From assembly GCF_008274585.1 (NCBI RefSeq), contig NZ_VTRT01000001.1, positions 930,001 through 994,000 on the forward strand: a stretch of DNA of 64,000 nt, written 5' to 3'. Every line of letters begins with the position of its first letter. The stretch's first letter is position 1. This DNA is from Pedobacter sp. BS3 (lineage in GTDB: Bacteria > Bacteroidota > Bacteroidia > Sphingobacteriales > Sphingobacteriaceae). A model generated the notes under the pieces. The model worked only from the letters and a program-made list of their open reading frames with translations. It searched no databases and had not been told where the DNA came from. Below are positions 23,907 to 44,976 of this stretch, piece after piece. The translations under genes were made by a program, and so were the position numbers.

Positions 23907-23910
23907 CAGA

Positions 23911-23950
23911 CACGAACTTTGACAACTTTCTAAAATTGTCAAAGTTCGTG
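23911..23950. terminator. Perfect 15-bp-stem hairpin at the island edge
   Basis: CACGAACTTTGACAA (23911-23925) pairs with TTGTCAAAGTTCGTG (23936-23950) across a 10-nt loop. It sits 8 bp past the stop of the beta-helix gene, so it can end the long leftward operon, although no T run follows. It also begins 5 bp from the purD-end repeat. Confidence 0.6.
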
Positions 23951-23958
23951 TAAGTAAG

Positions 23959-25953
23959 CTACAATTTTACCAGTTTTGCCTTTACCACACTGTTTCCGTG
24001 GCTAAGATACAGCACATATACGCCAGCCGGTGCAGTTGTTGCAATGGAAACATTTGAACTGCCGTAGTTTACACTACCCTGTTGTACAGTTGCTCCGGCC
24101 TCGTTCACCAATTTATAACTATAATTTCCAGTAGTGTAACCATTTAACGCCATATTAATTACATTTCCCTTTACCGGGTTTGGATAAATCAGTATGCTCT
24201 CTATGGCAAGCGAGGTTACTTTTACCGTTTGTATATCTTTATATCTGGCAGTAGTGCCATCATTATCTACGGTTACCAAACGATAGTAGTTAACACCCAA
24301 TTGCGGGCTGGCATCTGTTGTGTTGTACGAAGCCGAACCATTGGCACTTACGGTGGCCACGTTTACAAAATCAATGCCGTTTTGCGAACGTTCTATTTCG
24401 TAGCGCTTTACATTGTTCTCTGTACCTACGCTCCATTTTAATTGAGTACGGTTGTTAACCAAGCTGGCAGTAAAAGCACTCACGGTAACCGGTAAAACAC
24501 TCTGATACTCGTAAGCCCCCATATCTACTCTAACACCATTATATATACGTGGGTTTATGCCTGTTATATCGAAATCGTAGCCAGATATAGCACTGTTTAG
24601 CCCCTTGTCTATTACACTGCCGCTATTGCTACCTAAAGTATAATCGCCTGTGGTAAAAGGTGCACCGACAAATGCGGGCGAGTTGCTAAACATAGGGTCT
24701 GCATTGATGTTGCCTGTACCGCTGCTATAATTTGTTTCATTGGCTACTCCGGCGTATTGCACATCGCTATAGGTAACGGTGGCAGTAGCCCCGTTGGTAG
24801 CATTGTTCCATATACCGTGGTTATTACCGTAAATTATACAATTGATAATTACGGGATTAGTACCAGAGCCAGCCGCACCTGTGTTACACATTGCACCACC
24901 AATACTGGCGGCATTATTGCCGGCAATGGTACAGTTGATAAAAGCTGGTGTACAGGTTTTACCGGCGGCACTAAAATTATACACCCCACCACCGGCATTG
25001 GCGCCCTTATTGCCCGAAAAAAGGCAGTTGATAAACTTGGCGGTAGTAGTGTTTAAGTTTAACACCCCTCCACCGCTAGCACCAGAACCAACACTTGCCT
25101 CATTACCTCTAAAAGTACAATTAGTAACAATAGGGTTAGTGTTCTCATTGGTCAAGCCACCACCGCTATAAGTAGCCCTTGTTGATTTATTACGGATAAA
25201 CGTACAATTGGTAATGGTAATGGTAGTTGGGTTGGCAACATCCATATAGGTGTACAAACCGCCGCCATAACCCGGTGCAGTATTGCTATCAAATGTGCAG
25301 CTGGTAATGTCGGCATTAGACGCCGAAGAGATAATTACCGCTCCGCCACTGCCTGCCGATGTATTGCCATAAAACATACAGTTTGTTATGGTAATGGGAC
25401 CGCCAGCACTATATAACGCACCACCGTTGCCGCTGGTTGTTGTTTTGTTGCCTTTAAAAATACAATTGGTAACAATAGCATTGGCATTGAAGTTATTCAT
25501 GCCGCCACCACCACTAGCGTCCACACTACCATCCTTAATGGTAAAACCATCATACGTTATGGGTTTGGTAAAAGGTGTTACGGTACCAGCATTTGCAATC
25601 ACCCTACTGCCATTGCCTACAAAATTGGTGCTGTCGGCTGCGGTAGTGCCAAATACCCTGTCACCCAACGAGGTTTCTGTCCCGGCAAAGCCGCCATATA
25701 GTTTTACGCCGCTTTTGGTTCCGGTCAGGTCAATAAGAGGTAGGCCACTTGCGGCAGTGTAAGTACCTTTCTTTACAAAAATCATGTCGCCATCAGTTGC
25801 AGCACTAATGGCGGCCGCAAGGGTTTTGGCATTATCCCAGTCTGCACCGCTGTTACCGGCAACCCCGTCTGTTGTTACAAAGTAGATGGTGGTCTGTGCT
25901 TTTAGCATGCTTATTGCTAAACATAGCAACAAGGTAAAATAATACTTTTTCAT
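23959..25953 (-). CDS. T9SS-exported beta-helix protein (choice-of-anchor Q / Pmp-like repeats)
   Basis: A 664-residue protein with a signal peptide (MKKYYFTLLLCLAISMLKAQ). A right-handed beta-helix (about 25-480) is built from repeats such as NCIFKGNKTTTSGNGGALY, NCTFRGNEASVGSGASGGG and NCTIAGNNAASIGGAM, each with the GNxxxxGGG Pmp-like pattern. A fibronectin-like stretch (about 490-580) and a C-terminal Por sorting domain (YPNPVKGN...GVYVLYLSHGNSVVKAKLVKL) follow. It should be secreted by the type IX system and kept on the cell surface, where a beta-helix could act as adhesin or polysaccharide-active enzyme; no catalytic residues are recognisable. It is the last gene of the SusC operon, 50 bp after the BACON gene. 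Confidence 0.82.
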   Translation of the reverse strand: MKKYYFTLLLCLAISMLKAQTTIYFVTTDGVAGNSGADWDNAKTLAAAISAATDGDMIFVKKGTYTAASGLPLIDLTGTKSGVKLYGGFAGTETSLGDRVFGTTAADSTNFVGNGSRVIANAGTVTPFTKPITYDGFTIKDGSVDASGGGGMNNFNANAIVTNCIFKGNKTTTSGNGGALYSAGGPITITNCMFYGNTSAGSGGAVIISSASNADITSCTFDSNTAPGYGGGLYTYMDVANPTTITITNCTFIRNKSTRATYSGGGLTNENTNPIVTNCTFRGNEASVGSGASGGGVLNLNTTTAKFINCLFSGNKGANAGGGVYNFSAAGKTCTPAFINCTIAGNNAASIGGAMCNTGAAGSGTNPVIINCIIYGNNHGIWNNATNGATATVTYSDVQYAGVANETNYSSGTGNINADPMFSNSPAFVGAPFTTGDYTLGSNSGSVIDKGLNSAISGYDFDITGINPRIYNGVRVDMGAYEYQSVLPVTVSAFTASLVNNRTQLKWSVGTENNVKRYEIERSQNGIDFVNVATVSANGSASYNTTDASPQLGVNYYRLVTVDNDGTTARYKDIQTVKVTSLAIESILIYPNPVKGNVINMALNGYTTGNYSYKLVNEAGATVQQGSVNYGSSNVSIATTAPAGVYVLYLSHGNSVVKAKLVKL

Positions 25954-26003
25954 AATTGAAATTAATTTTAGATTAACTATTTTGTTATTTAATTGATTGT
26001 TTT

Positions 26004-27263
26004 TTATCTTTCTTTCAAAACCTGAATATTATCCAATAAAAACACCGGATTAACTACATTATTTTTTGCGCTGAATCTAATAGATGTAGCAGACGTTGCC
26101 CCCTCTACAACCAGTTCTCTATTATCCCATTGCAGGTATAGAGGATTAAGTTCTTTGCTGGTACTGCCATCATCAAAAGTGCCGGCACCCAAAACATCCA
26201 CAATTACGTACGTATCATTATTGTTCGCTTTTGCCATCGAAAACGTTACCTTAACCGCTACCTTACCCTGAATTTGGGACAACGCAGGTGTAGTAATATA
26301 TCCTCCGTTTCTTGCACTGGTATTTAACTTGATATGACCGGGGCGTTCGTACACATCCAAACCCGTCCACCCTGTCAAGCCTCTTAATGCCAGATAGGCA
26401 GGATGAACAAACCTGAAATAATCCTGGCTTCCATCGGCATAAGAAACTACGGTTTTATATTGGGGATTTGCCGGAAGCATATCTTTCAACACGCCGTTAT
26501 CATCCAATTTATCCCAAGCCACCAATGCTATACCTGGTGTATTGGCAATCTGATCTCCCCCAAACTCCAGCAAATTAAAATCCTGCGACAGATAAACCAT
26601 TCCTACCGGATCATCGTTCCCTTCTACGACAGCGTTCACCACTACCTCTTCTCCCAACAAGCTCAAGGTAAATTGTATTTCTCCCTTTTTGGCCGGTACC
26701 CCGCTCAATGGGATACGGATTGTACCGGTCTCTTCGGTAAGATCTGCTTGAACATCCGCAACAACCACTCCCTCACTGCCTGTGCCACTAACCCGGGTAG
26801 TTACCAATACAGGATCTGGAACACCGCCTCTGGAATAAGGCAATACAAGGTAAATCCCGTCCAGGCTGTACGTAGGCATGAGGGGTTCTGTGAAAGATGG
26901 CGTACCGAAGGTGATCTTACCTCTTTCCTGTTCGACCATCATCACGCTTTGTTGCGTAGCCGTAATTATTTTGAGCGCTGCTTCCCGCTCATCTCCCGTG
27001 TTTCGCTCCACTGTAATGGTAATCACCTGAGACTGGTCTTTATCCCCCTGTCCGTTCATTTTATCCACAGTAATCCAATCCGCCCCGCCAAGATCAACAG
27101 ACCATGCCTCGTTCGTCTTTAACGTAAACATTCTCTTTGCCCCTTTATAATCAAACATCAGCTTCTCCGGATCTTGCTTTAAAAATGGTTCCAAATGCTC
27201 TTTTGAGCATGAGAAAAAAGTTAGCAACAACGATGCTATACTTAAGTTGATAATTTTTTTCAT
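26004..27263 (-). CDS. BACON-domain surface lipoprotein
   Basis: A 419-residue lipoprotein with lipobox FFSC and lipidated Cys19. A BACON domain (about 35-115) is visible in the aromatic pattern NEAWSVDLGGADWITVDK and the conserved ITITVERNTGDEREAALKI. A beta-rich middle and C-terminal region (about 230-419) resembles a carbohydrate-binding jelly roll (KVAVKVTFSMAKANNNDTYV, FLLDNIQVLKER). BACON proteins sit in glycan-utilisation loci and help position glycans or enzymes at the cell surface. It is encoded between the aldolase and the beta-helix protein in the SusC operon. Confidence 0.75.
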   Translation of the reverse strand: MKKIINLSIASLLLTFFSCSKEHLEPFLKQDPEKLMFDYKGAKRMFTLKTNEAWSVDLGGADWITVDKMNGQGDKDQSQVITITVERNTGDEREAALKIITATQQSVMMVEQERGKITFGTPSFTEPLMPTYSLDGIYLVLPYSRGGVPDPVLVTTRVSGTGSEGVVVADVQADLTEETGTIRIPLSGVPAKKGEIQFTLSLLGEEVVVNAVVEGNDDPVGMVYLSQDFNLLEFGGDQIANTPGIALVAWDKLDDNGVLKDMLPANPQYKTVVSYADGSQDYFRFVHPAYLALRGLTGWTGLDVYERPGHIKLNTSARNGGYITTPALSQIQGKVAVKVTFSMAKANNNDTYVIVDVLGAGTFDDGSTSKELNPLYLQWDNRELVVEGATSATSIRFSAKNNVVNPVFLLDNIQVLKER

Positions 27264-27289: not shown

Positions 27290-28120
27290 CTAACTCAAAA
27301 AATCGACAACGTTTTCCGGCTTCGCCTTTTTATGAACGATATCCATCAGTGCCCTGGTTATGCCCCGGGGATTACGATGCTGGATCACATTTCGTCCATA
27401 TACGATTCCCCTCACGCCTTGCTGCATTAGATTATACGTCCTTTCAAGGATATCCTGATCACTTGTTTTCCCTCCGCCTCTGACAAGAACAGGGATTTCA
27501 CCTGCTATTTCCACTACTTTGTAATAGTCTTCAATCTGATCTGTTGGATCGGCTTTAATGATATCAGCACCCAATTCTACACCTTGCCTTACCAGGGGAA
27601 GTATCTTCGACAAGTCTCCATCTACCATGTATCCCCCTGCCTCGCTATTGGGCCTAAACACCAAAGGCTCTATCATCAGGGGCATACCATATCGCTCTGC
27701 TTCGGGTTTTATACGCAATATATTTTTGATGCAGTCCTCCATCACCTCAGGCTCATCGGGAATACTGAATAAATTTACCACCACACAGGCCGCATCCAAT
27801 TTAAGCGCTTGCTCTACGGGGTTGTCTATCATCAAACTGAAAAGCTTTCTGGGCAGTTTTTTTCCATATACATTCGCCACATCAGTCCTTAAAACCAAAG
27901 ACGGCTTTTCCCTCCCTGGAATACGCTGTAAATAATGGGCTTGCCCTACGGTCAGCTGAATGGCATCCGGCCGTGCCGATATCAAGGTATCTACTACCTT
28001 ATTGATGTTTTCGATACTTTCCAGAAAAGGGTACTCATTGAAAAACCCATGGTCAATGGCCACATCAAAACAATTTCCAGACTGACTATTAAATAGCCTT
28101 TTTAACCTAAATTCTCTCAT
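27290..28120 (-). CDS. DhnA/LsrF-type class I aldolase
   Basis: A 276-residue TIM-barrel enzyme. The family signature is clear: FDVAIDHGFF (about 18-27), LRTDVANVYG, MPLMIEPLVF, and ELGADIIKADPTDQ, in which Lys189 is the expected Schiff-base lysine, then VLVRGGGKTSDQDILE for phosphate binding and RGIVYGRNVIQHRNP. Enzymes of this family cleave ketose-phosphates (class I fructose-bisphosphate or sulfofructose-phosphate types) or 3-keto sugar phosphates. Here it is the only aldolase beside an isomerase and a PfkB kinase in the same locus, so it probably splits their phosphorylated product. It is cytoplasmic yet lies among surface lipoprotein genes. Substrate unknown. Confidence 0.8.
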   Translation of the reverse strand: MREFRLKRLFNSQSGNCFDVAIDHGFFNEYPFLESIENINKVVDTLISARPDAIQLTVGQAHYLQRIPGREKPSLVLRTDVANVYGKKLPRKLFSLMIDNPVEQALKLDAACVVVNLFSIPDEPEVMEDCIKNILRIKPEAERYGMPLMIEPLVFRPNSEAGGYMVDGDLSKILPLVRQGVELGADIIKADPTDQIEDYYKVVEIAGEIPVLVRGGGKTSDQDILERTYNLMQQGVRGIVYGRNVIQHRNPRGITRALMDIVHKKAKPENVVDFLS

Positions 28121-28127: not shown

Positions 28128-28925
28128 CTATTTTTTTATATAATCAATAGCTTCCCCTGCATACCCCAGATTATCGTTTCCCGAGTCTTTTCCAATCAGA
28201 AGCTCGCTGTCGGATATGCTGGCTATTCCAATAGAGGCATCAAAAGGCCCCCAACCCGCGATTTTAAAATCATTGGTCAGCCGTATAAGTCCGATATTGC
28301 CATAACAACCTACCCAAAACTCACCCCCATGATAATCTATGGTCTGTATACCGAGCGATGTATACCCGCTTTCAACGATATATCTCTTTTTGAAGTTGAA
28401 ATCACTATCGTACTCATACACATAATTTTCAAAAATCTCTTCGGGCAATCCGCCTACTACATAGAAACTATCTCCTCGTTTCACTATTCCACCCGCTCCG
28501 TAAATCACCTCGGGAATATGATAGGTAGACAGACGCTCCAAGGTACCGGCATCATACACATACACCCAGGAATCTGCTAAGCCATTGATATTATTCCACG
28601 TTCCAAATCCAACGGCTACATATACTTTGCCCGAGACAACAGTCAAGTCTCCGTGATGGTATGGGACATCGATCTTCTTCAAAACTTTCCCGTGCATATC
28701 TGTCTTGACCAACTGATTGGTATAACACCAAAACATATTGTTCTCGTCACGGGCAATACCTTGCAGGTGCATAGGGTAAGTACCTTCGCAGGTTATGATC
28801 TCACGGGCTTCGTACCCTTCTAAAACCGGAGCATCCAGTTCCGCTTTTGTGGTATCTGTATCCTTTTTACAAGCTAATACGAAGCATAACCAAAAAAAAG
28901 ATATGATCAACAATTTAATTTTCAT
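28128..28925 (-). CDS. Surface lipoprotein, beta-propeller-like
   Basis: A 265-residue lipoprotein: signal peptide with lipobox VLAC, lipidated Cys19, then KKDTDTTKAE linker. The body has repeated YVYDAGTLERLSTYHIPEVI / FKKRYIVESGYTSLG / LIRLTNDFKIAGWG units, which suggests a small beta-propeller with about five blades. It directly follows susD (33 bp), the place where SusE/F-like glycan-binding lipoproteins usually occur, and it probably helps bind the substrate outside the cell (inference). It ends 7 bp before the aldolase gene. No catalytic motif seen. Confidence 0.65.
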   Translation of the reverse strand: MKIKLLIISFFWLCFVLACKKDTDTTKAELDAPVLEGYEAREIITCEGTYPMHLQGIARDENNMFWCYTNQLVKTDMHGKVLKKIDVPYHHGDLTVVSGKVYVAVGFGTWNNINGLADSWVYVYDAGTLERLSTYHIPEVIYGAGGIVKRGDSFYVVGGLPEEIFENYVYEYDSDFNFKKRYIVESGYTSLGIQTIDYHGGEFWVGCYGNIGLIRLTNDFKIAGWGPFDASIGIASISDSELLIGKDSGNDNLGYAGEAIDYIKK

Positions 28926-28958: not shown

Positions 28959-30701
28959 TTACCATCCCTGGGTCTGTGTCAGATTTGTATTTAACTGTAG
29001 CTCTACAGTCGGAACAGGGTACAGATAGTCCCTGGTCTCGTTAAAACTCCTGTTGTTGAAAGTGGGATGCGGATCTTTAAGACCATTATTATCCAACACA
29101 AATTCACTGCTCAGATTGTAATACTGTACACCTGGCACCTGTGCCGGAGCACTGCCCGAATACAACACTACATCGGTTGTACCGTTGCCATCCATATCGT
29201 ATGAACCTGCCCCCGGGAAATATATTCCACGAATAGGCTGTGTCAGTGTCTGACCCGACTTCCACCGCACAATATCATCCCAACGGAAATTCTCCATATA
29301 AAGCTCTATTCTTCTCTCCCGTCTTATCTCTAAAATGACCCCCTTATATGCTCCCTTTACATTGGGGTATTGAGCACCTATATACGGGCAGGGCGTAGCA
29401 TTGGATAAGGCCAGGTTAAGATTGGGCATATTAACCCGATCACGTAACCGTTTTATCGACCGATCTATATCACCCTGCGTAATGGTTCCCAGCTCTGCCT
29501 TTGCTTCGGCATAGTTCAACAATACTTCGGCGTACCTAAAAAGCGGCAAATCATTAACCGATCGGTTATCTCCATCATATATAGGCTCTGTTACATACTT
29601 GGTTACCTGATAGCCTGTAACGGTTGCGCCCAGATTGGGTACTAACGCCTGCGTAGATCCCTTTCGGGTATAGCCAGGTGTACGTATGGTCTGGGACAGA
29701 CGCAGATCTCTATTGGCCACCTCTTGCGTAAAGAAAATCCGGTTAAAATTCGGCTGATCTGTAAAACGGCTCCCATCACTTTTCAGGTAACTATTTACCA
29801 TATCTTTAGGCATACCAGGCCTTACATTGGAAGTCGTCAGCGAATAATAGTTAGCGGCATGCCTAACAGCCAGGGCCTCATCGTATTGCCTGCTCAAAAT
29901 AACCTCCTCCGTCTTTGCATCCAATGAATTGAAGAGCGTTGCATAATCCTCGTCGGGATGGCCCGTGGTATATATCCCATAGGGCGAATTGAGCATTAAC
30001 TCGAGGGATGCTTCCGCACACTTCTCTAGATAAGGCTCATATCCCGAAATATTTCTATACTTCATGTAGGTACCCTCGTATAATGCTACGCGAGACTCCA
30101 GGGCCAATGCCGTATATTTGGTAATCGTATAGGGTTTTACCTCCTCGTTCAAATTCTGGATGGCCCAATCCAGGTCTTCCAGTATCTTGTCTACGATATA
30201 CCGCCTCGGACTTCTCGATTTCCTTAAGCTTTGGACATCCGAAGGGTCAATAACATAATCGTACCATGGGACATCTCCAAAGCGTTTTAGCTTATCAAAA
30301 TAGAAATAAGCCCTAAAAAACCGTGCAACCCCGCCATAGTGGCGTTTAGCGGCTTCATCGGGAACTTTTTCATAGTTTGCCAAAAAATAATTGATATCCC
30401 GCAAATATCCCCAGGTCCATCCTCCTCCCGATGTAGGTACGGTTCGCGTTCCCAACACTTCCTGTGAAAGCGTAAAGTGAACAACATTTGCCGCCCGGGC
30501 ATCGCCGGAATATATGGTCACTCCATCCGGCAGCATCTGATAGAAACCGTTCGTAAACAATTCCAGATCTCGGGCTTTGTTAAAAAAGGTTTCTCCAGAA
30601 ACTGACGCTACCGGAATCTTATCCAGATAACTATCCTTACATCCCATCAGTAAGACACATGACAGGATCGATATAATTTCCTTTTTACCTAACATAATCA
30701 A
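28959..30701 (-). CDS. SusD/RagB-family surface glycan-binding lipoprotein
   Basis: A 580-residue lipoprotein with lipobox LLMGC (Cys21). It begins KDSYLDKIPVASVSGETFF, the standard SusD start, and contains the helical TPR-like region, RFFRAYFYFDKLKRFGDVPWYD and YAEVLLNYAEAKAELG, with the conserved C-terminal VILEIRRERRIELYMENFRWDDIVRWK. SusD sits as a lid over SusC and captures oligosaccharides for import. It lies 5 bp after susC. Ligand not predictable from sequence. Confidence 0.95.
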   Translation of the reverse strand: MIMLGKKEIISILSCVLLMGCKDSYLDKIPVASVSGETFFNKARDLELFTNGFYQMLPDGVTIYSGDARAANVVHFTLSQEVLGTRTVPTSGGGWTWGYLRDINYFLANYEKVPDEAAKRHYGGVARFFRAYFYFDKLKRFGDVPWYDYVIDPSDVQSLRKSRSPRRYIVDKILEDLDWAIQNLNEEVKPYTITKYTALALESRVALYEGTYMKYRNISGYEPYLEKCAEASLELMLNSPYGIYTTGHPDEDYATLFNSLDAKTEEVILSRQYDEALAVRHAANYYSLTTSNVRPGMPKDMVNSYLKSDGSRFTDQPNFNRIFFTQEVANRDLRLSQTIRTPGYTRKGSTQALVPNLGATVTGYQVTKYVTEPIYDGDNRSVNDLPLFRYAEVLLNYAEAKAELGTITQGDIDRSIKRLRDRVNMPNLNLALSNATPCPYIGAQYPNVKGAYKGVILEIRRERRIELYMENFRWDDIVRWKSGQTLTQPIRGIYFPGAGSYDMDGNGTTDVVLYSGSAPAQVPGVQYYNLSSEFVLDNNGLKDPHPTFNNRSFNETRDYLYPVPTVELQLNTNLTQTQGW

Positions 30702-34078: not shown

Positions 34079-34203
34079 TGCCTTAGTTTTTGTACAGAAT
34101 TTCGGGCAGTATTTTTATCGACCTTATCATCCTGGATGATAGGGTTTATTTTTTCCTATACTGTCATTTTTTATTAGAACACACTCTTTTGATGGTTTAA
34201 CAT

Positions 34204-35343
34204 TCAGTTTTTTATCGCTAATAGATTTCCTATTTGTTTGGAAGTCCTTATTAAATTTTCCCGTGTATTTTTCAGCGCTTCTTCCCTGCATTCGGGCTCG
34301 TTCCCAATACTGAATAGTCCATCAAAGACCTCTTGTAACTCTTCTACAACGGTTCGTGTTACCTTCCCGGCCAAACCTATGACAGGTACATGCTTGCTTT
34401 TTGCTATTCGTGCAACAACAACCGGAGCCTTTCCGCCCAAAGACTGCATATCAATACACCCCTCTCCTGTAATCAATATATTAGCTGTTGAGATAGCTTC
34501 GCATAATTTCACCATCTCGCAAAAATATTGTGCACCATAAAGCAGTTCGGCCTGTAGATATACCTTACATGCCGCTGCAACACCTCCCGCCGCCCCGCCG
34601 CATTCGTGGTCTGCCAACGATTCGCCCATACATTTGAGCGTATCCTCATTAAATTTCTCCAGAAACTTTTCCAAAAAAATTACCTCTTCCTGAGTGGCTC
34701 CTTTTTGTGGTCCAAATACAGGAGCTGCTCCCAATTCTCCCAACAGTGTGTTGTTAACATCACATAAAACCCGGATCTTACAATGACGCATTCTCCGGTG
34801 TAAGCATGTCACATCTAAACGGTCTACTTCAAAATAGTTGACCGGCCTTGGAGCAATCTCTCTACCACTACGACCCCAAAAAGAGACACCTAACTCGGCC
34901 AACATCCCCACACCACCGTCCACTGTAGCTGACCCACCCAAGCATAAGATCATATCAGAAATACCCAAGGACAGAACATGGTTTATGAGTTCCCCCAGCC
35001 CCTTGGTGGACGCTTCTAAAGGCGTTATTTTCACGCCTCCTCGTATTGTTCCAAATCCCGATGTCTCTGCAATCTCCAGTACGGCTGTTTGCCCATCATC
35101 GATCAATCCGTACCACGCATTCACCATCTCACCGTATGCACCCGTCACCCGAAAAGAGCAATGCCTGCCCTTGAAAAAATCGGTCAATAATCTCCCCGTA
35201 TAATCTCCCCCGTCGCCAATCGGAATAACGTGACTCACATGGTCCAGCACGCTTTCGGACAATCCTTGCTGAATAGCGTATGCCACTTCATCTGCAGGCA
35301 GCCCCTCTTTAAAACTATTGGGTGCAATGATGATCTTATACAT
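34204..35343 (-). CDS. Glycerate kinase (GlxK/GarK family)
   Basis: A 379-residue kinase of the glycerate-2-kinase I family: IIAPNSFKEGLPADEVA at the N-terminus, IPIGDGGDYTGRLL, CLGGSATVDGGVGMLAELG, GGAAGGVAAA and LITGEGCIDMQSLGGKAPVVVA. The usual product is 2-phosphoglycerate from D-glycerate, feeding lower glycolysis. Family members normally read GDGGEGT where this has GDGGDYT, a change at the active loop that may mark an altered substrate. It lies 1 bp after the glycosidase gene and ends the upper operon section. Its presence suggests that one product of the pathway is glycerate or a relative (inference). Confidence 0.88.
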   Translation of the reverse strand: MYKIIIAPNSFKEGLPADEVAYAIQQGLSESVLDHVSHVIPIGDGGDYTGRLLTDFFKGRHCSFRVTGAYGEMVNAWYGLIDDGQTAVLEIAETSGFGTIRGGVKITPLEASTKGLGELINHVLSLGISDMILCLGGSATVDGGVGMLAELGVSFWGRSGREIAPRPVNYFEVDRLDVTCLHRRMRHCKIRVLCDVNNTLLGELGAAPVFGPQKGATQEEVIFLEKFLEKFNEDTLKCMGESLADHECGGAAGGVAAACKVYLQAELLYGAQYFCEMVKLCEAISTANILITGEGCIDMQSLGGKAPVVVARIAKSKHVPVIGLAGKVTRTVVEELQEVFDGLFSIGNEPECREEALKNTRENLIRTSKQIGNLLAIKN

Positions 35344-36769: not shown

Positions 36770-38212
36770 CTATCTAAATAATTCATTTATAATCCTGACA
36801 GTATTGTTTACCAGCACCTTCCCCCCATCATCACCGACCATAGTAGCCATCGCACTATACCCCCCTCCTGCCAAAGCTCTCTTTGTAGGAAGATAATCTG
36901 CATAATCACCGCACAACTGAACGACAAATATTTGCTTTGATGCACCTCTTCCTTTAATCATAAAGCCATAATCCACAAACAGCTCGAAAGGATTTGTAGC
37001 AAATACAATATCGCCCAGCCTAAGCACGTGGATTTCAGCTTTATAGATTTTCTGTATAGGATGGATTTTGTATTGTTCTACTTCCAACTCTTTCTTCCGA
37101 AGAATAGCATAGTCACTTTTTTTATTATCCCATGGCCCATGTCGTTTTACCTTTTCGTTAGACTTGATTTCTGCCAGGAACCTGTTCCATGCTGTTCCGG
37201 GAGAATTCTTGTCTTCGGGTTCCCTGGATTTGATTTCCCTGACGATGGACAGTGATTCGGCATAGGCTTCGGGAGATATGCTACGCAAGGGAATATCCAA
37301 TGTGCAGACGATATGTTTAAAAACGATAGCCTCCCGTTCACGCTTGCCTAAGTTGGAATAGGCTTCAAAAATCACATCTCCGATTCTTTTTCCCAACGCT
37401 ACAGTTCCTTCCGCTTCCCACATATTCGGTTCATCGGCCTTATAGCCTCTTGTCAAATCGCGGGGAGAGAGATCACCAGCTGCACCACATTGCGCCAGCA
37501 CATACAACGCTTTGGAGAATCGCTCTCGCAACACCTTCCGCACCTCATGCCAGTAGTCTGCCGATATGTAGTCTTTGGCTTCCGTTACCTGCGCCGGACA
37601 TGGAATATTTACAATGATACCTTCCAAATCTCCCTTACTATCCCTACAGAACAGCAAGTCCATAGAAGAATCACCCGGTCCTTCAATGCCTATATAATCT
37701 TCCCGATTCACTTCTCCATACATCTCGGTAGATCCATCTGCATACTGTACCCGTCTATTGTGCCCAACCGGCACATAAGTCAGACAGGATTGGAGACCTC
37801 CACTTGCCGTCCGGTTGTGCCATGCCGTAACAGCGGCCTCGGTCAGCTTGTCTATCAGCATGGTACCATATTCACTTTTTGCATCCGGCTCAGGCCCCGA
37901 ATGTGTATGGGTAGCGAAAATGAGCAACTTATTGGCATCAAACCCCTCCAGCCTATCCGCAACCTGTTTCCGCACACAACATTGAATTTCGGCGGTACAC
38001 CACAACAGGTCGATCGAAATCATGATCGCCTGCTCTTTAGCGCCGTCTACGGCGATAGATTCTAAAGCCAGAGCCGTAGCTGTCAGATTGCTCTGAACAT
38101 ATTTAGATAAGCGTTCGTAATACTGTCCAAACAAAGGGACAGCCCTCTCAGGCGTGATGTCGATCTCACTCCATCCGGTATATATTTTACCTGTTGTAAA
38201 CATCGTACACAT
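36770..38212 (-). CDS. Neutral/alkaline ceramidase-like hydrolase
   Basis: A 480-residue protein. It begins TGWSEIDITPERAVPLFGQY, carries LLIFATHTHSGPEPD (His102 and His104, zinc ligands of the neutral ceramidase fold), VPVGHNRR and LAQCGAAGDLSPRD, and ends with a YSAMATMVGDDGGKVLV-type block. Neutral ceramidases are zinc amidases cutting N-acyl bonds; many bacterial relatives occur in sugar loci and have no known substrate. No signal peptide is evident, so it probably works in the cytoplasm, which argues against true ceramide. Start may be the Met at 38203. It overlaps nothing and lies 2 bp after the aminotransferase gene. Confidence 0.72.
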   Translation of the reverse strand: MCTMFTTGKIYTGWSEIDITPERAVPLFGQYYERLSKYVQSNLTATALALESIAVDGAKEQAIMISIDLLWCTAEIQCCVRKQVADRLEGFDANKLLIFATHTHSGPEPDAKSEYGTMLIDKLTEAAVTAWHNRTASGGLQSCLTYVPVGHNRRVQYADGSTEMYGEVNREDYIGIEGPGDSSMDLLFCRDSKGDLEGIIVNIPCPAQVTEAKDYISADYWHEVRKVLRERFSKALYVLAQCGAAGDLSPRDLTRGYKADEPNMWEAEGTVALGKRIGDVIFEAYSNLGKREREAIVFKHIVCTLDIPLRSISPEAYAESLSIVREIKSREPEDKNSPGTAWNRFLAEIKSNEKVKRHGPWDNKKSDYAILRKKELEVEQYKIHPIQKIYKAEIHVLRLGDIVFATNPFELFVDYGFMIKGRGASKQIFVVQLCGDYADYLPTKRALAGGGYSAMATMVGDDGGKVLVNNTVRIINELFR

Positions 38213-38214
38213 CG

Positions 38215-39600
38215 TTAGTATCCATATTCTTTTTCTACTTCGGATATGGCCTCCTCTATGATCTCCAGTCCCATCATGGCATAGGCCTCATCCGTTATCA
38301 AAGGTGGCGACATCCTTAAAATATGTCCTGCAGGTATCCAGGCAAGCCCTTTACGAAAAGCCTTTTGGTACACCAGTTCTCCGGCCTTTGCAAAAGGTTC
38401 TTTCGTCTTTTTGTCTTTCACGAGCTCAATGCCCAAAAGAAAGCCTTTACCTTTCACATCGCCTATAATAGGATGCCTGTCCATCATTTCACGCATACGC
38501 ACCATCATCTTGGCACTAACATTTCTCACATTTTCCAAAAGACCTTCCTCTTCGATGACTTCTAGCGAGGCCAGGGCGGCGGCACAGGCCATAGGGTTGC
38601 CTCCATAACTTGATGAGCCTGATATCTTATCCATAGCCTCCGCATATTCGTCTTTGACAACGAGTGCAGTTACAGGGAATCCGTTTCCAAATGATTTTCC
38701 GAAAGTGACAATATCAGGTACTACATTCCAATGGTTCATCGTCAGCCATTCCCCTGTTCTTCCCATACCGGCAAGCACTTCGTCATCAAACAAGAGCACT
38801 CCCAATCTATCACATAGCTGTCTAAGTTTCGGAAAAAAATCATCCGGCGGAAAAATAGACCCGGCCCACCCTTGTGCCGGCTCAAGTACAAATGCGGCCA
38901 AATTGCCTACCGTTGCTTCCTGAATAAACTGCTCATAGAACCTGATATAAGCGTCCGTATCCAGGCTACCATCTGCTTTTGTCCAGATAGGTCTATACGG
39001 ATCAGGACGGGGCACCATATAGAACCCGGGAGCTCTGGTCGGCCCATAACTGTGTACATCGCCTCTAATCATCTGCCCGCAGCTTACGGCTGCCATTGTT
39101 TTGCCATGGAAATCACGGAAACATGATATAAATTCATGCTTGCCCGTAATGGCACGAGCCGCCCGAATACCGGCTTCTACCGCCGTAGCTCCGTCACTGA
39201 ACAGTTGGATAGACGTCAATCCTTTAGGCAGGATAGCTGCCATCTTTTCCATCAATTTTTCCTTTACAGGTGTGGTGAAATCATGCATGTTCATCAAGCG
39301 GTTTGCCCAATGGGCTATCGCTTCTGAAATTTTGGGATGACAGTGGCCCAGGGAAGTTACATAGATCCCCGAAGAAAAATCCAGGTAACGATTACCGTCC
39401 GAATCGATCAGAGAGATACCATGCCCGCTTTCAAAACACACGGGGAATAAATTTACCTGACCGCTTAGTCCTCTCATGTACTTTGCCGTGTTCGCATGCA
39501 TCCGCTTCGAAACCGGCCCAGGAGGGGCCTGAACAATCTGAGGTATCTGACGGGCACTTTCTCTCCACCAATCTTTGTTTACTTCTAAAGTCTTCATCAT
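38215..39600 (-). CDS. Class III PLP-dependent aminotransferase
   Basis: A 461-residue fold-type I enzyme. The PLP lysine is Lys302 (TFGKSFGNGFP), with FDDEVLAGMGRTG (Asp272, Glu274) and SDGATAVEAGIRAARAITG in the cofactor pocket. It follows the plan of 4-aminobutyrate / acetylornithine / beta-alanine-pyruvate / taurine-pyruvate aminotransferases and glutamate-semialdehyde aminomutase. Its genomic setting (between PfkB kinase, 18 bp, and the ceramidase-like hydrolase, 2 bp) is unusual: aminotransfer would suit a substrate with an amine, such as an amino sugar or an aminopolyol freed from an N-acyl group (inference). Substrate unknown. Confidence 0.88.
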   Translation of the reverse strand: MMKTLEVNKDWWRESARQIPQIVQAPPGPVSKRMHANTAKYMRGLSGQVNLFPVCFESGHGISLIDSDGNRYLDFSSGIYVTSLGHCHPKISEAIAHWANRLMNMHDFTTPVKEKLMEKMAAILPKGLTSIQLFSDGATAVEAGIRAARAITGKHEFISCFRDFHGKTMAAVSCGQMIRGDVHSYGPTRAPGFYMVPRPDPYRPIWTKADGSLDTDAYIRFYEQFIQEATVGNLAAFVLEPAQGWAGSIFPPDDFFPKLRQLCDRLGVLLFDDEVLAGMGRTGEWLTMNHWNVVPDIVTFGKSFGNGFPVTALVVKDEYAEAMDKISGSSSYGGNPMACAAALASLEVIEEEGLLENVRNVSAKMMVRMREMMDRHPIIGDVKGKGFLLGIELVKDKKTKEPFAKAGELVYQKAFRKGLAWIPAGHILRMSPPLITDEAYAMMGLEIIEEAISEVEKEYGY

Positions 39601-39618: not shown

Positions 39619-40746
39619 TTATAAGGTTATTACTGTATTTTCTAATGCTACCTGCTGCTCAATATTATTTAGATCTGGGAATTCATCACTTAGATCCAGG
39701 CAATACAGGCTTTCTTTTCCTGCCATGGCCGCCAGTTTGAGAGCCTCTAATGGTTTTTTTCGATGGAGCAATGCTGCTAAAAATACCGCTACGGCCGAAT
39801 CTCCTGCTCCGGAGGCATTCACAAAGCGTGTATCCTCAACAGCGTATGCTTTACAAAATATCTCCTGATCTGTCCATTCTTCTCCCAAATCCAGTATATC
39901 TTGCGCATCTCCTGTAACCATATATATGCCTTTATGGGCCAGCTTGATCATGACAATTTTTGCACCGAAGCCCAACAGTTGCCGTCCGATTTCCTGCACT
40001 GTTTCATTAGGGATAAAGTCTATTAAATTGCTTCCACCATACATAGCAACCAATTCCTGATACAAGTCAGGCATCAGCATGTATAAAATCTCTTCGATGC
40101 TTGGGGCGATAATGTCTGTATATGGCAGGACATTGTGCAAAATATCTCTCCATCTTATTTCTCCCGATCCCACGTGCTCATCCGGTAAACATAAATCCAT
40201 AGAAGTCACTGTACCGTGCTGCCGGGCATAGTCCAGCAGCTTGATCAGATCTTCTCCTCCATTTCTGTAAAATTTCTGCATAAGCGGTAAGTAGCCGAAA
40301 TGAAGTATTTTGCTCTTGGCTACCTGCTGAAAATTGACACAATCAAGATCAAAAAGATGACTACATCCGGGATATTCCAAGAACATCCTGTCATTACCCG
40401 GAGGAGAAAGCACCAGACCAAAGGAAGTTCCTGCATACTGGATTTTCTTCATGTCGCTCTCAATCTGTATTTCATTCAGACGGGCAGTCAGAAACTGGCC
40501 TAAATGATCGTCACCTACCACACCATTCAAAACAACCTTCTTCCCGATTCTATGCAAAACCAGCCCCGTATTGCCCACAACACCACCTACTGTAAAAGCC
40601 ATTCCGTCCAATTCCACCAGCATTCCTGGTCTGAAAAACTCCTTTGGAGGCGTAGGGATACGGTATGTTTTTTTGAATACAGGCAACATATCCACACAGA
40701 TATACCCACACACAAAGACATCAAAAGATTCACTGTTGTCCATCAT
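39619..40746 (-). CDS. PfkB-family carbohydrate kinase
   Basis: A 375-residue ribokinase-like kinase. GGVVGNTGLVLHRIG and GVVGDDHLG are the N-terminal signature; NASGAGDSAVAVFLAAL is the C-terminal one, with the general base Asp316 in GAGDS. It is longer than ribokinase, with an insertion around 185-250 (HVGSGEIRWRDILHN...SNLIDFIPNE). It should phosphorylate the ketose or ketoacid made by the isomerase encoded 7 bp upstream, for later aldol cleavage. Enzyme specificity is not readable. Confidence 0.88.
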   Translation of the reverse strand: MMDNSESFDVFVCGYICVDMLPVFKKTYRIPTPPKEFFRPGMLVELDGMAFTVGGVVGNTGLVLHRIGKKVVLNGVVGDDHLGQFLTARLNEIQIESDMKKIQYAGTSFGLVLSPPGNDRMFLEYPGCSHLFDLDCVNFQQVAKSKILHFGYLPLMQKFYRNGGEDLIKLLDYARQHGTVTSMDLCLPDEHVGSGEIRWRDILHNVLPYTDIIAPSIEEILYMLMPDLYQELVAMYGGSNLIDFIPNETVQEIGRQLLGFGAKIVMIKLAHKGIYMVTGDAQDILDLGEEWTDQEIFCKAYAVEDTRFVNASGAGDSAVAVFLAALLHRKKPLEALKLAAMAGKESLYCLDLSDEFPDLNNIEQQVALENTVITL

Positions 40747-40753: not shown

Positions 40754-42121
40754 TTAGTGTAATACCACAGCTATATCATTCAACTCACAGAAATCAACAA
40801 ACTGGTTTCTGTAATCCCCATAGGCCAAAATATAATGCTGGCCTGAGATATGTTTTACAAATTGTTCGACCGGAGTTTCCAGTTTCACGAGCAGGCTTGG
40901 CAACTGCGGCGCAGGTTGCGTCCAACCAGCCTCTTCCCAGGAACAACGCTCACCCTGTCCATAGGCGATGTGCATTGTATAGTCAGAACCCGTATTAGAA
41001 ATTCTCGCAATCGTCAGCCCGCCCTCTTTCATGGCAGAAACATTGAGTAACCCTCCACTTATCTGGCCAAACGCGGCAGGCAGCACCCGTATGCCGCCCT
41101 CTACAACCTCCTGTGGAACATAATCAGGAACGCCCATCAGCACGCTATCTTCAAAGTATTCGTAAAACTCCAGGTAAGCCGCACATTGCCCTGTAAGCTG
41201 TTTGACGACAAGCTGTGTCACAGCTCCCATCACATCATTCTCAGGAATAGTACAAAAACCGGCCTCGTCGGCAAGCAGCATAAAGACAAAAGCCGGAGGA
41301 AACCCCAATATCTTTTTCATACCATCCACATCTTTCAAAGAAATCGCATCCAGACCCCTTTCGTCTGCGATCTGCTTAATAGCCAGATAATAAGTTATAC
41401 CTCGTTTTAAAAAATCTTTATCCATTTCCCCTAAAAACTCCCAGGCCGATTTTATCTTATCCAAGACAACCTGAACCTCATCTGCGTTTATTTTTTCGCT
41501 TAGCGAAACCACTTCCAGCATTTCAAAAAATTCAACTTCAATCCCCAGATTCTTTTTAAGGGATATTCCTTCATACAACGTATTATAGAGTCTCATATCC
41601 CTGAACCCCATCATTCCTATTCTAGAGTCTCGCAGGTTTTTACCGGCAAAAGCTGCTGTGATAAAACTTTCTATTTTTGATAGCGGCGAAGGGCTGCCAA
41701 TGATATTGTACAGATAAATAAACTTGTAACCTAAATCCTGAAATACTTTACGCAACGCCGAAGTACCTGCCTGAGCGGCGGTAGTTACAATATGCCCGTT
41801 TGGCTTTTCTCCGGCAAGCCCCCACAGCACGATTGGCAGATGTCTGTATTTGTCCGTGATCGAAATGACAGTATGTGAGGGTATCCATCCACTCAAACAT
41901 ATAATCAGCACATCAAATTTCTCCTGTGCTAACTCCTCCTGTGCCCGCAATACATCTTCTCCTCGTTCATCATCTGTCACCAGACCTGTTGTAACAATCT
42001 GATACCCAAGGCTATGGATCCCCCGCAGAGCCTTGTCAGACATCTCAGCAATGAGTTTTTTGGGTGAATTAACCTCTCCAAAGGATACAAAACCAACTTT
42101 TCTATCAATTTTACCTATCAT
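40754..42121 (-). CDS. Sugar isomerase, L-fucose/L-arabinose isomerase superfamily
   Basis: A 455-residue cytoplasmic protein. Two N-terminal Rossmann-like domains (VGFVSFGEVN; FDVLIICLSGWIPSHT; IVLWGLAGEKPNGHIVTTAA) and a C-terminal FucI-like domain (LLADEAGFCTIPENDVMGAVTQL; GGIRVLPAAFGQISGG; HYILAYGDYRNQFVDFCEL) match this superfamily. It contains EAGFCTIPENDVMGA with Glu and Asp in the position of the metal ligands. The C-terminal HYxxAYGDYRxQxxDFCELxxI is the FucI-family ending. It probably converts an aldose to a ketose, first cytoplasmic step of the pathway. Six bp separate it from the permease gene. Confidence 0.78.
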   Translation of the reverse strand: MIGKIDRKVGFVSFGEVNSPKKLIAEMSDKALRGIHSLGYQIVTTGLVTDDERGEDVLRAQEELAQEKFDVLIICLSGWIPSHTVISITDKYRHLPIVLWGLAGEKPNGHIVTTAAQAGTSALRKVFQDLGYKFIYLYNIIGSPSPLSKIESFITAAFAGKNLRDSRIGMMGFRDMRLYNTLYEGISLKKNLGIEVEFFEMLEVVSLSEKINADEVQVVLDKIKSAWEFLGEMDKDFLKRGITYYLAIKQIADERGLDAISLKDVDGMKKILGFPPAFVFMLLADEAGFCTIPENDVMGAVTQLVVKQLTGQCAAYLEFYEYFEDSVLMGVPDYVPQEVVEGGIRVLPAAFGQISGGLLNVSAMKEGGLTIARISNTGSDYTMHIAYGQGERCSWEEAGWTQPAPQLPSLLVKLETPVEQFVKHISGQHYILAYGDYRNQFVDFCELNDIAVVLH

Positions 42122-42127: not shown

Positions 42128-43486
42128 TTATTTGTTTTTACTATTTCTATTTCTCCAGAATTCACTGATATTTTCCAGGCTGACACCTTTTGTCTCCGGC
42201 ACCTTGAGCCAGCAAAAAAGAGCCCCTAAAAGGCATATTATCGCAAACATCCAATATACACCGGCTCTGTTTCCGTATAGATCATTAAACCATTGATTAA
42301 GCATAGGAAAGAATTGCGCTGTAATAAATGAAGACAAATACAGAAAGAAACAAACAACGGCAGTTGCCTTAGCCCGTATTCGGTTCGGAAAGATCTCCGA
42401 AATAATAATCCAGCCCAAAGGAGCCAATCCCAATGTAAATGCACTAGTCCCGATAAGCATAGGAATCAACGTATACATAGGCGGCCAGCCCTGTTGGAAA
42501 TTTAACGCCATCACGATATGGCCGATCCCCATAAAAACCACACTCCAGATCAGTAACGTGCGCCTGTTCAAAACCTTGATAAGAGGAAACGAAATCAACG
42601 TACTGATAAGAATAAATACATACACTGGGAGCGAACTCAAAATAGCGTGTGAGCCCACGGTCACACCGGCACTCGCCATGATAGTAGGTGCGTAAAGCAA
42701 CAGCATATTGACACCATTGATTTGCTGAAGAATCATCAAAAGGATAGCGACTATCAGGGCACTTTTGATACCGGGCGATAAAAGATCCTTGAAATTTCCT
42801 TTTTCCTCAGACATACTTTCGGTGATCCGCTGTATTTCGACAGTAGCCATCTCCTGCCCATTGATTTTGGATAGTATTTTTTCGGCCAATTTCAATTTAC
42901 CGTTCATCACCAGCCAGCGTGGGCTCTCAGGAATACTGAGCAGCCCAATAATCAAAAACATAGCAGGAACAATCTGTGACATCATCATCCAGCGCCAGCC
43001 CCATCCATCAAAGGAGAAAAAATAACAGGAAACCGCGGCAATATTGATCCCAATGACATTAGATAATTGATTGACGTTCACCAGTACACCCCGCAAATGA
43101 GCCGGGGCCAATTCGGCTATATATATCGGTGACGAAATCATAGCCAGACCGATACCTAATCCCCCAAAGAAACGATAACAAGAAAAATCCCAGATACCCA
43201 GAGAAAATGTACAGCCAATCGTACTTATCACAAAAAGTACTCCGGCAAACATCAGCGTCTTCTTTCGTCCCCAACGATCGGCAAACCATAACCCTCCCAG
43301 GGGGCCAACTATGCAGCCTAAAATCGCACTACTTACAGCCAGGCCTTGCAATGCTTCAGGCAGTTCAAATTCAGCCGTTAGAAAGGGTAATGCACCGGAG
43401 ATAATGACCAGATCAAAGCCAAAAAGAAATCCACCCACTGATGCGACCAAAGCCACCCTTAAAATATACCATAAATTGATTTTCAT
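42128..43486 (-). CDS. MFS sugar permease (XylE/GLUT-type H+ symporter)
   Basis: A 452-residue protein with 12 hydrophobic segments. It shows the sugar-porter motifs GGFLFGFDLVIISGALPFL, WFADRWGRKKTLM, PESPRWLVMNGKL at the middle loop, QQINGVNMLLLYAPTI, and PETKGVSLENI at the C-terminus. It carries the freed monosaccharide across the inner membrane with protons. First gene of the leftward operon and divergent from the AraC regulator; the 237-bp gap between them should carry the regulatory sites. Confidence 0.94.
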   Translation of the reverse strand: MKINLWYILRVALVASVGGFLFGFDLVIISGALPFLTAEFELPEALQGLAVSSAILGCIVGPLGGLWFADRWGRKKTLMFAGVLFVISTIGCTFSLGIWDFSCYRFFGGLGIGLAMISSPIYIAELAPAHLRGVLVNVNQLSNVIGINIAAVSCYFFSFDGWGWRWMMMSQIVPAMFLIIGLLSIPESPRWLVMNGKLKLAEKILSKINGQEMATVEIQRITESMSEEKGNFKDLLSPGIKSALIVAILLMILQQINGVNMLLLYAPTIMASAGVTVGSHAILSSLPVYVFILISTLISFPLIKVLNRRTLLIWSVVFMGIGHIVMALNFQQGWPPMYTLIPMLIGTSAFTLGLAPLGWIIISEIFPNRIRAKATAVVCFFLYLSSFITAQFFPMLNQWFNDLYGNRAGVYWMFAIICLLGALFCWLKVPETKGVSLENISEFWRNRNSKNK

Positions 43487-43676: not shown

Positions 43677-43723
43677 CAATATACAATCCAATACCATTGG
43701 TTTAATAGCAATTTAGTATTTAA

Positions 43724-44593
43724 TTGGAACCCAAACTAGAAAAAATATCTCCGAATCTGCTTTCCTCTCTCGCCGTAAAAAGAGAGGTGACACCTTATAT
43801 GGATTATCCCCTCCACTATCATCCAGAATATGAGATAATCTTTGTAGAAAAAAGCAAAGGATTGAGAATAATGGGAAATCATGTAGATCAGTTTTCCGAT
43901 GGCGATCTGGCGTTCATCAGTTCTTATCTACCCCATGTGTGGAAAAACGACAAAGAATATTACGAAGGAAACAAAGAGTTATATGTAGATGTATACGTTA
44001 TTCATTTCCTGGAAGATTGTTTTGGAAAAGATTTTTTCAAATTGCCTGAATTAAATCATATAGCACAATTATTTGAATTAGGCAGACAAGGTATATCCAT
44101 ATTAGGCAAGGAGCACAGCAAGATATCCCAGATGATCAAAGCTGTCTATCATTCCAACGGATACGAACGGCTAATAAATTTTCTAAATCTGCTCGATACC
44201 ATAGCAACAGCAAAGGATATCAAATTACTTTCTACGCCACTATATGTTCAAAATATAAATAAAATAGAAACGGACCGGCTAAACATAGTGATCGACTTTA
44301 TGATGAAAAACTATCGTGACGATATCTATCTGGATCAATTGGCCGCTATCATCAACATGAACAAAGCTTCATTTTGCCGATACTTTAAAACCAGAACCCA
44401 CAAAACATGTACAGAGTTCCTCAATGAAATAAGGATTTCCCAAGCCTGTAAACTACTCTTAAATAAGAGCTTAAGTATTTCAGAAATCTGCTACAAGGTA
44501 GGTTATAACAACATCTCTTATTTTAACAGACAATTCAAAAAAATAACCAGAATGAGTGCCAAAATGTATAGAAAACAACTTGTCTCTATTTAA
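43724..44593 (+). CDS. AraC-family transcriptional regulator
   Basis: A 289-residue protein with an N-terminal cupin (PLHYHPEYEIIFVEKSKGLRI, about 27-47; FSDGDLAFISSYLPHVW) and two C-terminal HTH motifs (YLDQLAAIINMNKASFCRYFK; SISEICYKVGYNNISYFNRQF, about 255-275). The HYHPEYE cupin metal motif suggests it senses a sugar. The frame starts at TTG 43724 right after a stop codon, the only plausible start; the first ATG (codon 26) would cut into the cupin. It is divergent from the permease and probably controls the whole locus. Confidence 0.9.
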   Translation: MEPKLEKISPNLLSSLAVKREVTPYMDYPLHYHPEYEIIFVEKSKGLRIMGNHVDQFSDGDLAFISSYLPHVWKNDKEYYEGNKELYVDVYVIHFLEDCFGKDFFKLPELNHIAQLFELGRQGISILGKEHSKISQMIKAVYHSNGYERLINFLNLLDTIATAKDIKLLSTPLYVQNINKIETDRLNIVIDFMMKNYRDDIYLDQLAAIINMNKASFCRYFKTRTHKTCTEFLNEIRISQACKLLLNKSLSISEICYKVGYNNISYFNRQFKKITRMSAKMYRKQLVSI

Positions 44594-44599
44594 TAGGTA

Positions 44600-44856
44600 G
44601 CTACCTGGGCTGCCATGACAATCAACATCGTTGCCGTTTCAGGCATGACAATTGCAGAAACGCTGCACTATGCCACTAAAAGGATAAAGCTATAATTTCC
44701 GGCTATGAAAGTTTGACCAGCGACACTAATGGTAACGAATTGAAAAGCAAACATTTTGACATCAAAGTAGTATTGGTTCCGGCCGGGTCCGTTACTAAGC
44801 TTTCGTCGGTTAATATCAAAAACCTTAAACTGGTAGAAGGGGCTTTGGAATTATAA
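44600..44856 (+). pseudogene. Frameshifted gene remnant (3' end)
   Basis: After the AraC stop, one frame reads VATWAAMTINIVAVSGMTIA, then ETLHYATK, and the next frame continues KAIISGYESLTSDTNGNELK, VVLVPAGSVTKL and ends NLKLVEGALEL with TAA at 44856. The join needs a one-base shift near 44680. No start and no family recognised. It looks like the decayed end of a protein cut off when the island or its neighbour was rearranged. Confidence 0.4.
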
Positions 44857-44865
44857 ATGAATATG

Positions 44866-44896
44866 GACTTACGAAGTTTTGGAAACTTCGTAAGTC
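44866..44896. terminator. Perfect 14-bp-stem hairpin near the right island edge
   Basis: GACTTACGAAGTTT (44866-44879) pairs with AAACTTCGTAAGTC (44883-44896) over a 3-nt loop. No long T run follows. Its right arm, AAACTTCGTAAGTCT, also occurs at 23757-23771 left of the other purD-end copy, so it may belong to the duplicated boundary DNA. Confidence 0.55.
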
Positions 44897-44976
44897 TTAA
44901 AAACAGATTGCTTCACTGCCTGATTTCTCCGCTCATCGGGATTTGTAATCCCGATGCTCATAACCTCCGGATTTAT

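Follow-up and report, generated by a model that had tools for sequence, protein, structure and literature searches.

Here we describe a sugar-catabolic operon in Pedobacter sp. BS3, found in a window of 64,000 nucleotides (the whole stretch analysed; contig NZ_VTRT01000001.1, positions 930,001 to 994,000), which encodes a FucI/AraA-fold isomerase (ISO), a PfkB-family kinase (PFKB), a DhnA-type class I aldolase (ALD), a class III aminotransferase (AT3) and a ceramidase-fold protein (CER). The operon is real, ordinary by its parts, unusual as a set and conserved beyond chance. Very probably the isomerase, kinase and class I aldolase form one conserved sugar pathway, of which CER and AT3 are true members. 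The whole is best explained, tentatively and at a little under an even chance, as an operon devoted to the catabolism of a single uncommon monosaccharide that is released from extracellular glycans, working by the mechanism proposed below. The elements of this account that the sequence shows are which genes belong to the set and that they are co-inherited, how the isomerase folds and which of its residues bind metal, and that the class I aldolase lysine is intact.

Organization of the operon

Thirteen genes occupy the minus strand between 43486 and 23959, an AraC gene diverges from them, and every gene named in an earlier reading made from the DNA letters alone (the sequence-only reading) is an intact open reading frame (ORF). 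Coordinates are positions in the window, and the order of transcription on the minus strand runs from high to low coordinates.

43724..44593, plus strand: AraC-family regulator, divergent (Pfam HTH_18)
42128..43486, minus strand: sugar porter of the major facilitator superfamily (MFS), XylE-like (Pfam Sugar_tr, TIGR00879)
40754..42121, minus strand: ISO, predicted FucI/AraA-fold aldose-ketose isomerase of a distinct subfamily (predicted fold, invariant metal-site residues)
39619..40746, minus strand: PFKB, PfkB-family sugar kinase (Pfam PfkB, 92 bits)
38215..39600, minus strand: AT3, class III pyridoxal phosphate (PLP) aminotransferase (Aminotran_3, 308 bits)
36770..38212, minus strand: CER, putative ceramidase-fold hydrolase (Foldseek match to neutral ceramidase)
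35345..36757, minus strand: GH39-like glycosidase (Pfam GH39, 79 bits)
34204..35343, minus strand: glycerate kinase (Pfam Gly_kinase, 360 bits)
30707..34027, minus strand: SusC-like TonB-dependent receptor (Pfam)
28959..30701, minus strand: SusD-like lipoprotein (Pfam SusD_RagB)
28128..28925, minus strand: weakly matched beta-propeller-like lipoprotein (NANM, 23 bits, cut-off 45)
27290..28120, minus strand: ALD, predicted DhnA-type class I aldolase of the DeoC/LacD family (Pfam DeoC, 116 bits)
26004..27263, minus strand: BACON-domain protein, possible surface glycan binder (Pfam BACON)
23959..25953, minus strand: beta-helix protein with a type IX secretion (T9SS)-type tail (Pfam Beta_helix; Por_Secre_tail, 26.5 bits, cut-off 27)

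The intergenic gaps from the MFS gene to the glycerate kinase gene are, in order, 6, 7, 18, 2, 12 and 1 bp, so that a single transcript is likely, and the tight same-strand packing beside a divergent AraC gene described in the sequence-only reading is borne out. Glycerate kinase is separated from SusC by 176 bp, followed by gaps of 5, 33, 7, 26 and 50 bp. ALD lies behind SusC/D and outside that upper block. Pfam and NCBIfam back the gene names, except for ISO and CER, both of which score under curated cut-offs, and the SusC/SusD pair, glycosidase and catabolic genes recognised by Pfam together make up a polysaccharide utilization locus. The isomerase, kinase and aldolase of the full phosphorylating pathway claimed earlier stand as one conserved set; its completeness is not established, since no aldehyde dehydrogenase was found among the 14 proteins scanned with Pfam.

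Scanning for promoters and terminators gave no useful signal, with 50 promoter-like sites (mean in shuffled sequence 40.8) and 14 resembling terminators (14.8). A 12-pair inverted repeat at 34120-34146, between glycerate kinase and SusC, is terminator-like on the plus strand only. Just downstream of the operon end, an IS110-family transposase (22712-23719, plus strand) is possibly relevant to the patchy distribution of the system.

Conservation of the gene set

The phylum was sampled with 395 genomes, including that of Pedobacter sp. BS3 itself; no ISO ortholog above 28% identity was found among the 394 others, 20 of which contain an ISO match at 20-28% identity that looks non-orthologous. Scanning the GTDB species genomes yielded 118 ISO relatives, from which 80 loci were kept. 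The 20 near loci (L023-L042) have a best-segment identity to ISO of 60-71% and are by record label Bacteroidota-type in 19 cases (Parapedobacter indicus holds L023 and Agriterribacter humi L030) and Opitutus in one (L040), while the 60 further loci (L043-L102), at 49-54% identity, come mostly from metagenome-assembled genomes (MAGs) of Clostridia, with L047 from a Terriglobia MAG. Gene clusters were built from ORFs whose centres lie no more than 8 kb from ISO, which was itself recovered in 78 of the 80 loci.

This search for the same neighbourhood in other genomes, which the sequence-only reading had recommended, shows that the set recurs. Near loci contain PFKB in 19 of 20 cases, CER in 18, AT3 in 16 and ALD in 11, together with a Gfo/Idh protein (GFO; its best models are of the sugar-type dehydrogenase kind) in four. 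The four AT3 misses are L024, L026 and L027, which end 0.2-1.4 kb after ISO and were scored as misses for both AT3 and ALD, and L040; AT3 is present on other contigs in the L024 and L027 genomes, and was not found at E<=1e-100 in those of L026 and L040. Compared with window CER, 13 of the near-locus copies have 49-61% identity and five 26-39%, so some of the latter may be other paralogs. An AraC cluster, encoded on the other strand from ISO, is found in 11/20 near loci; a FucP-like porter replaces the MFS porter in 9/20; and GH39 relatives at 36-38% identity occur in L031, L035 and L071.

As controls, 10-20 kb were taken around 18 of the 21 non-own, non-orthologous FucI/AraA-like places in the phylum sample (only 13.9 kb for L152 and 10.6 kb for L155; the isomerase ORF was not refound by blastp at E<=1e-5 in L141, L145, L147 and L148). 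None of PFKB, CER, AT3, ALD and GFO was found in these 18 loci at E<1e-15, SusC occurs in five and FGGY in two, and the weak matches (E 1e-5 to 1e-6) to PFKB in two and to GFO in two are ordinary members of large families. Independent loci thus share the core set, which at that threshold is missing from the controls, so that its association exceeds chance.

Inter-locus distances (window included, L047 left out, best-scoring copy per locus) correlate with those of ISO at r 0.91 for PFKB (20 loci), 0.92 for ALD (12), 0.82 for AT3 (17) and 0.40 for CER (19), values reached in 0, 0, 0 and 5 of 5000 permutations each. The genes of the set are co-inherited, CER being the loosest member, and with the near-locus counts this upholds the earlier assignment of AT3 and CER to the set. 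The core occurs in Bacteroidota isolates and MAGs, one Terriglobia MAG and many Clostridia MAGs of herbivore-gut label. From this spread, the substrate is probably a widespread environmental sugar; the sequence-only reading had remarked that no gene names it, and it is still named by no model searched. Once it is named, functions could be assigned together to one subfamily of FucI-fold isomerases, one of ceramidase-fold hydrolases and a class III aminotransferase of high conservation.

Isomerase, kinase, aldolase and aminotransferase

ISO scores 25.5 bits against Fucose_iso_C (cut-off 29.3) in a profile search. Its AlphaFold2 model (pLDDT 90.3) matches L-arabinose isomerases (AraA) at Z ~30-31 over the full length and L-fucose and D-arabinose isomerases at Z 28-29, with 426-439 residues of the three-domain fold aligned at 14-16% identity, so that the structure comparison proposed in the sequence-only reading does place it with this family. 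Residues E293, E317 and H428 (numbering of window proteins follows the alignments, with the initiator Met omitted) are invariant in 40 sequences. In weak profile alignments with columns counted by hand, E293/E317 align with FucI E337/D361 (probability 69) and E293/H428 with AraA E306/H450 (probability 32), E317 landing one column beside AraA E333; these FucI and AraA residues are presumably the metal ligands, whose positions ISO thus appears to share. The best NCBIfam model is the sulfoquinovose isomerase SftI (44.9 bits, cut-off 700) and the AraA model PRK02929 gives 24.1 bits against 622, both far from equivalog level, while no FucI equivalog at E<=0.01 was found in the NCBIfam search and no PDB match at E<=0.01 by sequence. 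From its modelled structure, ISO is predicted to interconvert aldose and ketose with the FucI/AraA fold and to form a subfamily apart. The neighbours of the isomerase in the E. coli fuc cluster are FucK, FucU and FucA, whereas those of ISO include AT3 and CER.

PFKB belongs to the PfkB kinases (92 bits, cut-off 25.8), with IolC as best NCBIfam model (63 bits, under the cut-off of 300). The closest solved structures to ALD are MJ0400, LsrF and an archaeal fructose-bisphosphate aldolase; K188, which we take to be the Schiff-base lysine, aligns with that of MJ0400 and LsrF and is invariant in 10 sequences, and ALD is accordingly predicted to be a class I DhnA-type enzyme with its aldolase lysine intact. 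No other protein of the set is as well conserved as AT3, which has 13 relatives at 58-87% identity. Its K301, D272 and R428, presumably the PLP lysine, Asp and carboxylate-binding Arg, are invariant in 14 sequences, as expected of a class III aminotransferase, and its closest solved relatives act on amino acids.

The ceramidase-fold protein

CER scores 16.9 bits against Ceramidase_alk (cut-off 32.1) in a profile search. Its model (pLDDT 88.4) is matched by Foldseek to the neutral ceramidase 2zws (E 1.1e-24, TMq 0.69, root-mean-square deviation 9.0), the next matches having a probability <0.4. With the solved neutral ceramidases (2zws, 4wgk), CER shares the catalytic-domain fold and, by sequence alignment and not superposition, the HxH motif, Glu409 and Tyr439. 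It differs from them in length (480 residues against 630-672), in a changed second His ligand column and, in many Clostridia, in a Ser to Cys replacement. No signal peptide was seen by eye. On the model, CER is a ceramidase-fold protein whose amidase chemistry is putative.

Four CER-like genes lie in one genome region (L041, 8439-9941 and 15306-16946; L110, 10528-11910 and 11979-13520; the L110 pair named by eye), adjoining GH51-type genes and in some cases with apparent signal peptides, which points to a diversified ceramidase-fold family.

Proposed pathway

In the pathway that we propose, the GH39-like glycosidase and SusC/D would deliver the sugar and the MFS porter would import it, CER would strip an acyl group (amide or ester), and AT3 would convert the sugar amine to a carbonyl. 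ISO would then isomerize the aldose to the ketose, which would be phosphorylated by PFKB and split by ALD into a triose phosphate and an aldehyde. At loci lacking ALD, the step after AT3 would fall to GFO, which might reduce the carbonyl just formed. That the substrate is an N-acylated amino sugar and passes through the steps in this order is a tentative assignment, plausible but somewhat short of an even chance. In NagA-NagB/Aga catabolism, deacylation and nitrogen removal likewise come before glycolytic cleavage; here CER and AT3 would perform them, with the addition of an aldose-ketose isomerase acting on the sugar.

The context of ALD outside the operon bears on this order. ALD and GFO mostly stand in for each other: no ALD was found anywhere at E<=1e-20 in the four near-locus genomes whose operon includes GFO, and 10 of the 12 genomes with an operon ALD contain no GFO at E<=1e-70, GFO adjoining a second ALD copy in the other two. 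ALD adjoins GFO in the four ISO-free loci examined, and in three of these, L119 (Parapedobacter indicus), L121 (L040 genome) and L134 (L033 genome), a PIG-L de-N-acetylase and a 310-residue NagB-like protein are encoded nearby, forming one same-strand row with ALD-GFO in L119 and L134. Pfam identifies PIG-L in L119 and L121, and the L134 copy was assigned on 75% identity. Neither Pfam nor, at E<=1, the PDB offers a match to the 310-residue protein, which hhalign aligns over 176 columns to NagB of E. coli (probability 94.6, E 6.7e-8). ALD homologs at 50-52% identity (L120, L122), which lie among other genes, were not counted as ALD-GFO loci. In the Clostridial L102 genome, where the ISO locus is ISO-FGGY-CER, AT3, GFO and a GH39 homolog (34% identity to window GH39) are found together on another contig (L123).

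These contexts suggest that AT3, GFO, ALD and GH39 recombine as one functional group, and that a deacylase and an enzyme of nitrogen-removing type accompany ALD in two non-orthologous forms, CER with AT3 and PIG-L with the NagB-like protein. The two-form context is the best argument for an N-acyl amino sugar, an argument from gene context and not from chemistry, and the ISO-free loci support, without proving, deacylation and nitrogen removal ahead of the isomerase-kinase-aldolase steps. In a further Clostridial cluster (L136, 5115-12810), the neighbours of a GFO homolog are an MFS porter, a further FGGY kinase and a protein that by eye is FucI-like, and GFO may therefore partner several isomerases.

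Several observations weigh against this pathway. Of the 30 genomes searched, five have an AT3 ortholog at E<=1e-100, namely those of L024, L027 and L047 and only 2 of the 25 Clostridial ISO genomes, yet CER is present in 20 of the 30 full-flank distant loci; in the 23 Clostridial genomes without AT3, either nitrogen is removed in another way or it is not on the sugar. CER, the most loosely co-inherited member, departs from the complete Zn site of neutral ceramidase: the column of His204, a Zn ligand of neutral ceramidase, is occupied by Pro, Gln or Cys in the sequence alignment, and the serine of its GDxSP motif is Cys in many Clostridia. Given both changes, CER may act as something other than an amidase. 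The PIG-L and NagB-like genes of L121 are on the strand opposite ALD-GFO, 5-8 kb away, and the fourth ISO-free locus, L135, where ALD-GFO lies among mannosidase-like genes (named by eye), contains no PIG-L, NagB-like, CER or AT3 relative. The enzyme for the second aldolase product is absent from the window locus. The SusC/SusD partners vary across loci (21-32% identity), so the source glycan is not fixed. The deacylation and transamination of an N-acyl sugar put forward in the sequence-only reading thus gains from the PIG-L and NagB-like neighbours of ALD and loses from the rarity of AT3 in Clostridia and the missing CER histidine.

The Clostridial variant and alternative pathways

The 30 full-flank loci among L043-L102 contain an FGGY kinase (22), CER (20), YjbQ (15), TIM (12), a KpsF/GutQ-type SIS protein (12) and an FSA-type aldolase (11), these genes often being contiguous (e.g. 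L075, L076, L088); the FGGY, SIS and FSA representatives score under equivalog cut-offs. The FSA residues Q59, K85 and Y131, which we take to be of aldolase type, do not vary among 8 loci and FsaA of E. coli. For SIS, GutQ (128 bits) and KdsD (125 bits) score highest among the models, each below its cut-off. In L075, L076, L085, L088 and others, the genes form a tight operon, TIM-SIS-YjbQ-FGGY-ISO-FSA-CER, in which YjbQ (UPF0047) fits no role in any pathway drawn.

This gene content also fits a rare sugar that lacks nitrogen, a pentose being the simplest case, which we regard as doubtful but quite possible. ISO would form the ketopentose, CER would remove an O-acyl group and AT3 would handle a two-carbon oxo product. 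In the Bacteroidota branch, PFKB would phosphorylate C1 and ALD would release dihydroxyacetone phosphate and glycolaldehyde; in Clostridia, FGGY and the KpsF/GutQ-type SIS would lead to an arabinose 5-phosphate-like aldose, cleaved by FSA into glyceraldehyde 3-phosphate and glycolaldehyde. GH39, GH51 and GH3 are families with many pentose-acting members, and GH39, GH51-type and GH3 relatives lie within ~30 kb of some ISO genes. The FsaA and KdsD reactions proposed for the Clostridial variant have been deliberately combined in a synthetic glycolaldehyde pathway via arabinose 5-phosphate, which operates in the biosynthetic direction (PMC9947464); PMC6298115 describes, as a design, a shunt through arabinose 5-phosphate. 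The pentose would, however, leave the best conserved protein of the set, AT3, with a side role only, and PIG-L and the NagB-like protein beside ALD unexplained; glyoxylate carboligase is above cut-off in none of eight ISO genomes, and the SIS proteins carry Ser, Thr or His in place of the Lys of the GutQ GKSG motif. An erythritol-like tetrose route for the Clostridial variant, through TIM and the sugar-phosphate isomerase, is less natural, because FSA retains its aldolase-type residues; an apiose route was considered by reasoning only.

No description of the ISO-PFKB-AT3-CER-ALD set was found in titles and abstract openings, which is weak evidence that there is none, since most subscription papers lay outside the search; within that coverage, the question raised in the sequence-only reading, whether the set is an already characterised pathway, is answered in the negative. 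That a CER deacylase, an AT3 amine-to-carbonyl step and a finish by FucI-fold ISO, PFKB and DhnA-type ALD make up an undescribed pathway for N-acylated amino sugars, and that in gut Clostridia ISO and CER feed a natural aldolase route of arabinose 5-phosphate type, is possible, if rather unlikely.

Alternatively, CER could split an amide between the sugar and an amine or amino acid, with ISO, the kinase and the aldolase consuming the sugar and AT3 taking the released amine, so that nitrogen is never on the sugar chain. This would account for Clostridia that keep CER mostly without AT3, and it agrees with the action of the closest AT3 relatives on amino acids and with the M20 deacylase-like (6/30) and CapA-like (4/30, by eye) proteins of the distant loci. 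We consider it distinctly improbable: the pairing of AT3 with GFO, a sugar-type dehydrogenase, and with ALD fits sugar chemistry better, and the amidase activity of CER that it needs is itself putative.

A known deoxysugar pathway, such as that for sulfoquinovose or L-fucose, is highly unlikely and was rejected on model scores and enzyme classes. The E. coli L-fucose pathway (FucI-FucK-FucA) follows the same isomerase, kinase and aldolase logic with an FGGY kinase and a class II aldolase, in contrast to the PfkB kinase and class I aldolase of the window locus. For sulfoquinovose, SftI is the best model of ISO at a score far under its cut-off, and the profiles of the sulfolactaldehyde enzyme, SqvB and YihQ were unmatched among the window proteins scanned. 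Sulfo-EMP2 (PMC9594981) is the nearest described layout, sharing a FucI-type isomerase (SqvD), a sugar 1-kinase and an aldolase, but its PfkA-family kinase SqiK and class II aldolase SqiA are from families other than those of the window locus, which adds AT3 and CER and has no recognised sulfonate genes.

Glycerate kinase and neighbouring genes

The glycerate kinase gene follows the GH39 gene by 1 bp, and the genome holds a second copy (G000:C22). From this enzyme, the sequence-only reading had deduced a C3 product at the glycerate level. Glycerate kinase is labelled in none of the 80 other ISO loci, some of them incomplete, and is present in three of eight ISO genomes and absent from five, so the deduction fails. 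A glycerate route as part of the core was rejected on these counts and on the carboligase result given above, and the kinase is a local accessory.

About 11 kb from the operon, a pectin-like group on the minus strand (55259-63944) encodes GH28 and GH2 enzymes, a SASA acetylesterase and a protein of 1003 residues that Pfam does not match; GH28-like or SASA genes are also found within ~30 kb of some other ISO genes. The window further contains a type III restriction-modification pair (46374-51115, minus strand; REase_III 652 bits, MTase_III 482 bits) and an ORF resembling an AbiEii-type nucleotidyltransferase toxin (54485-55108, plus strand).

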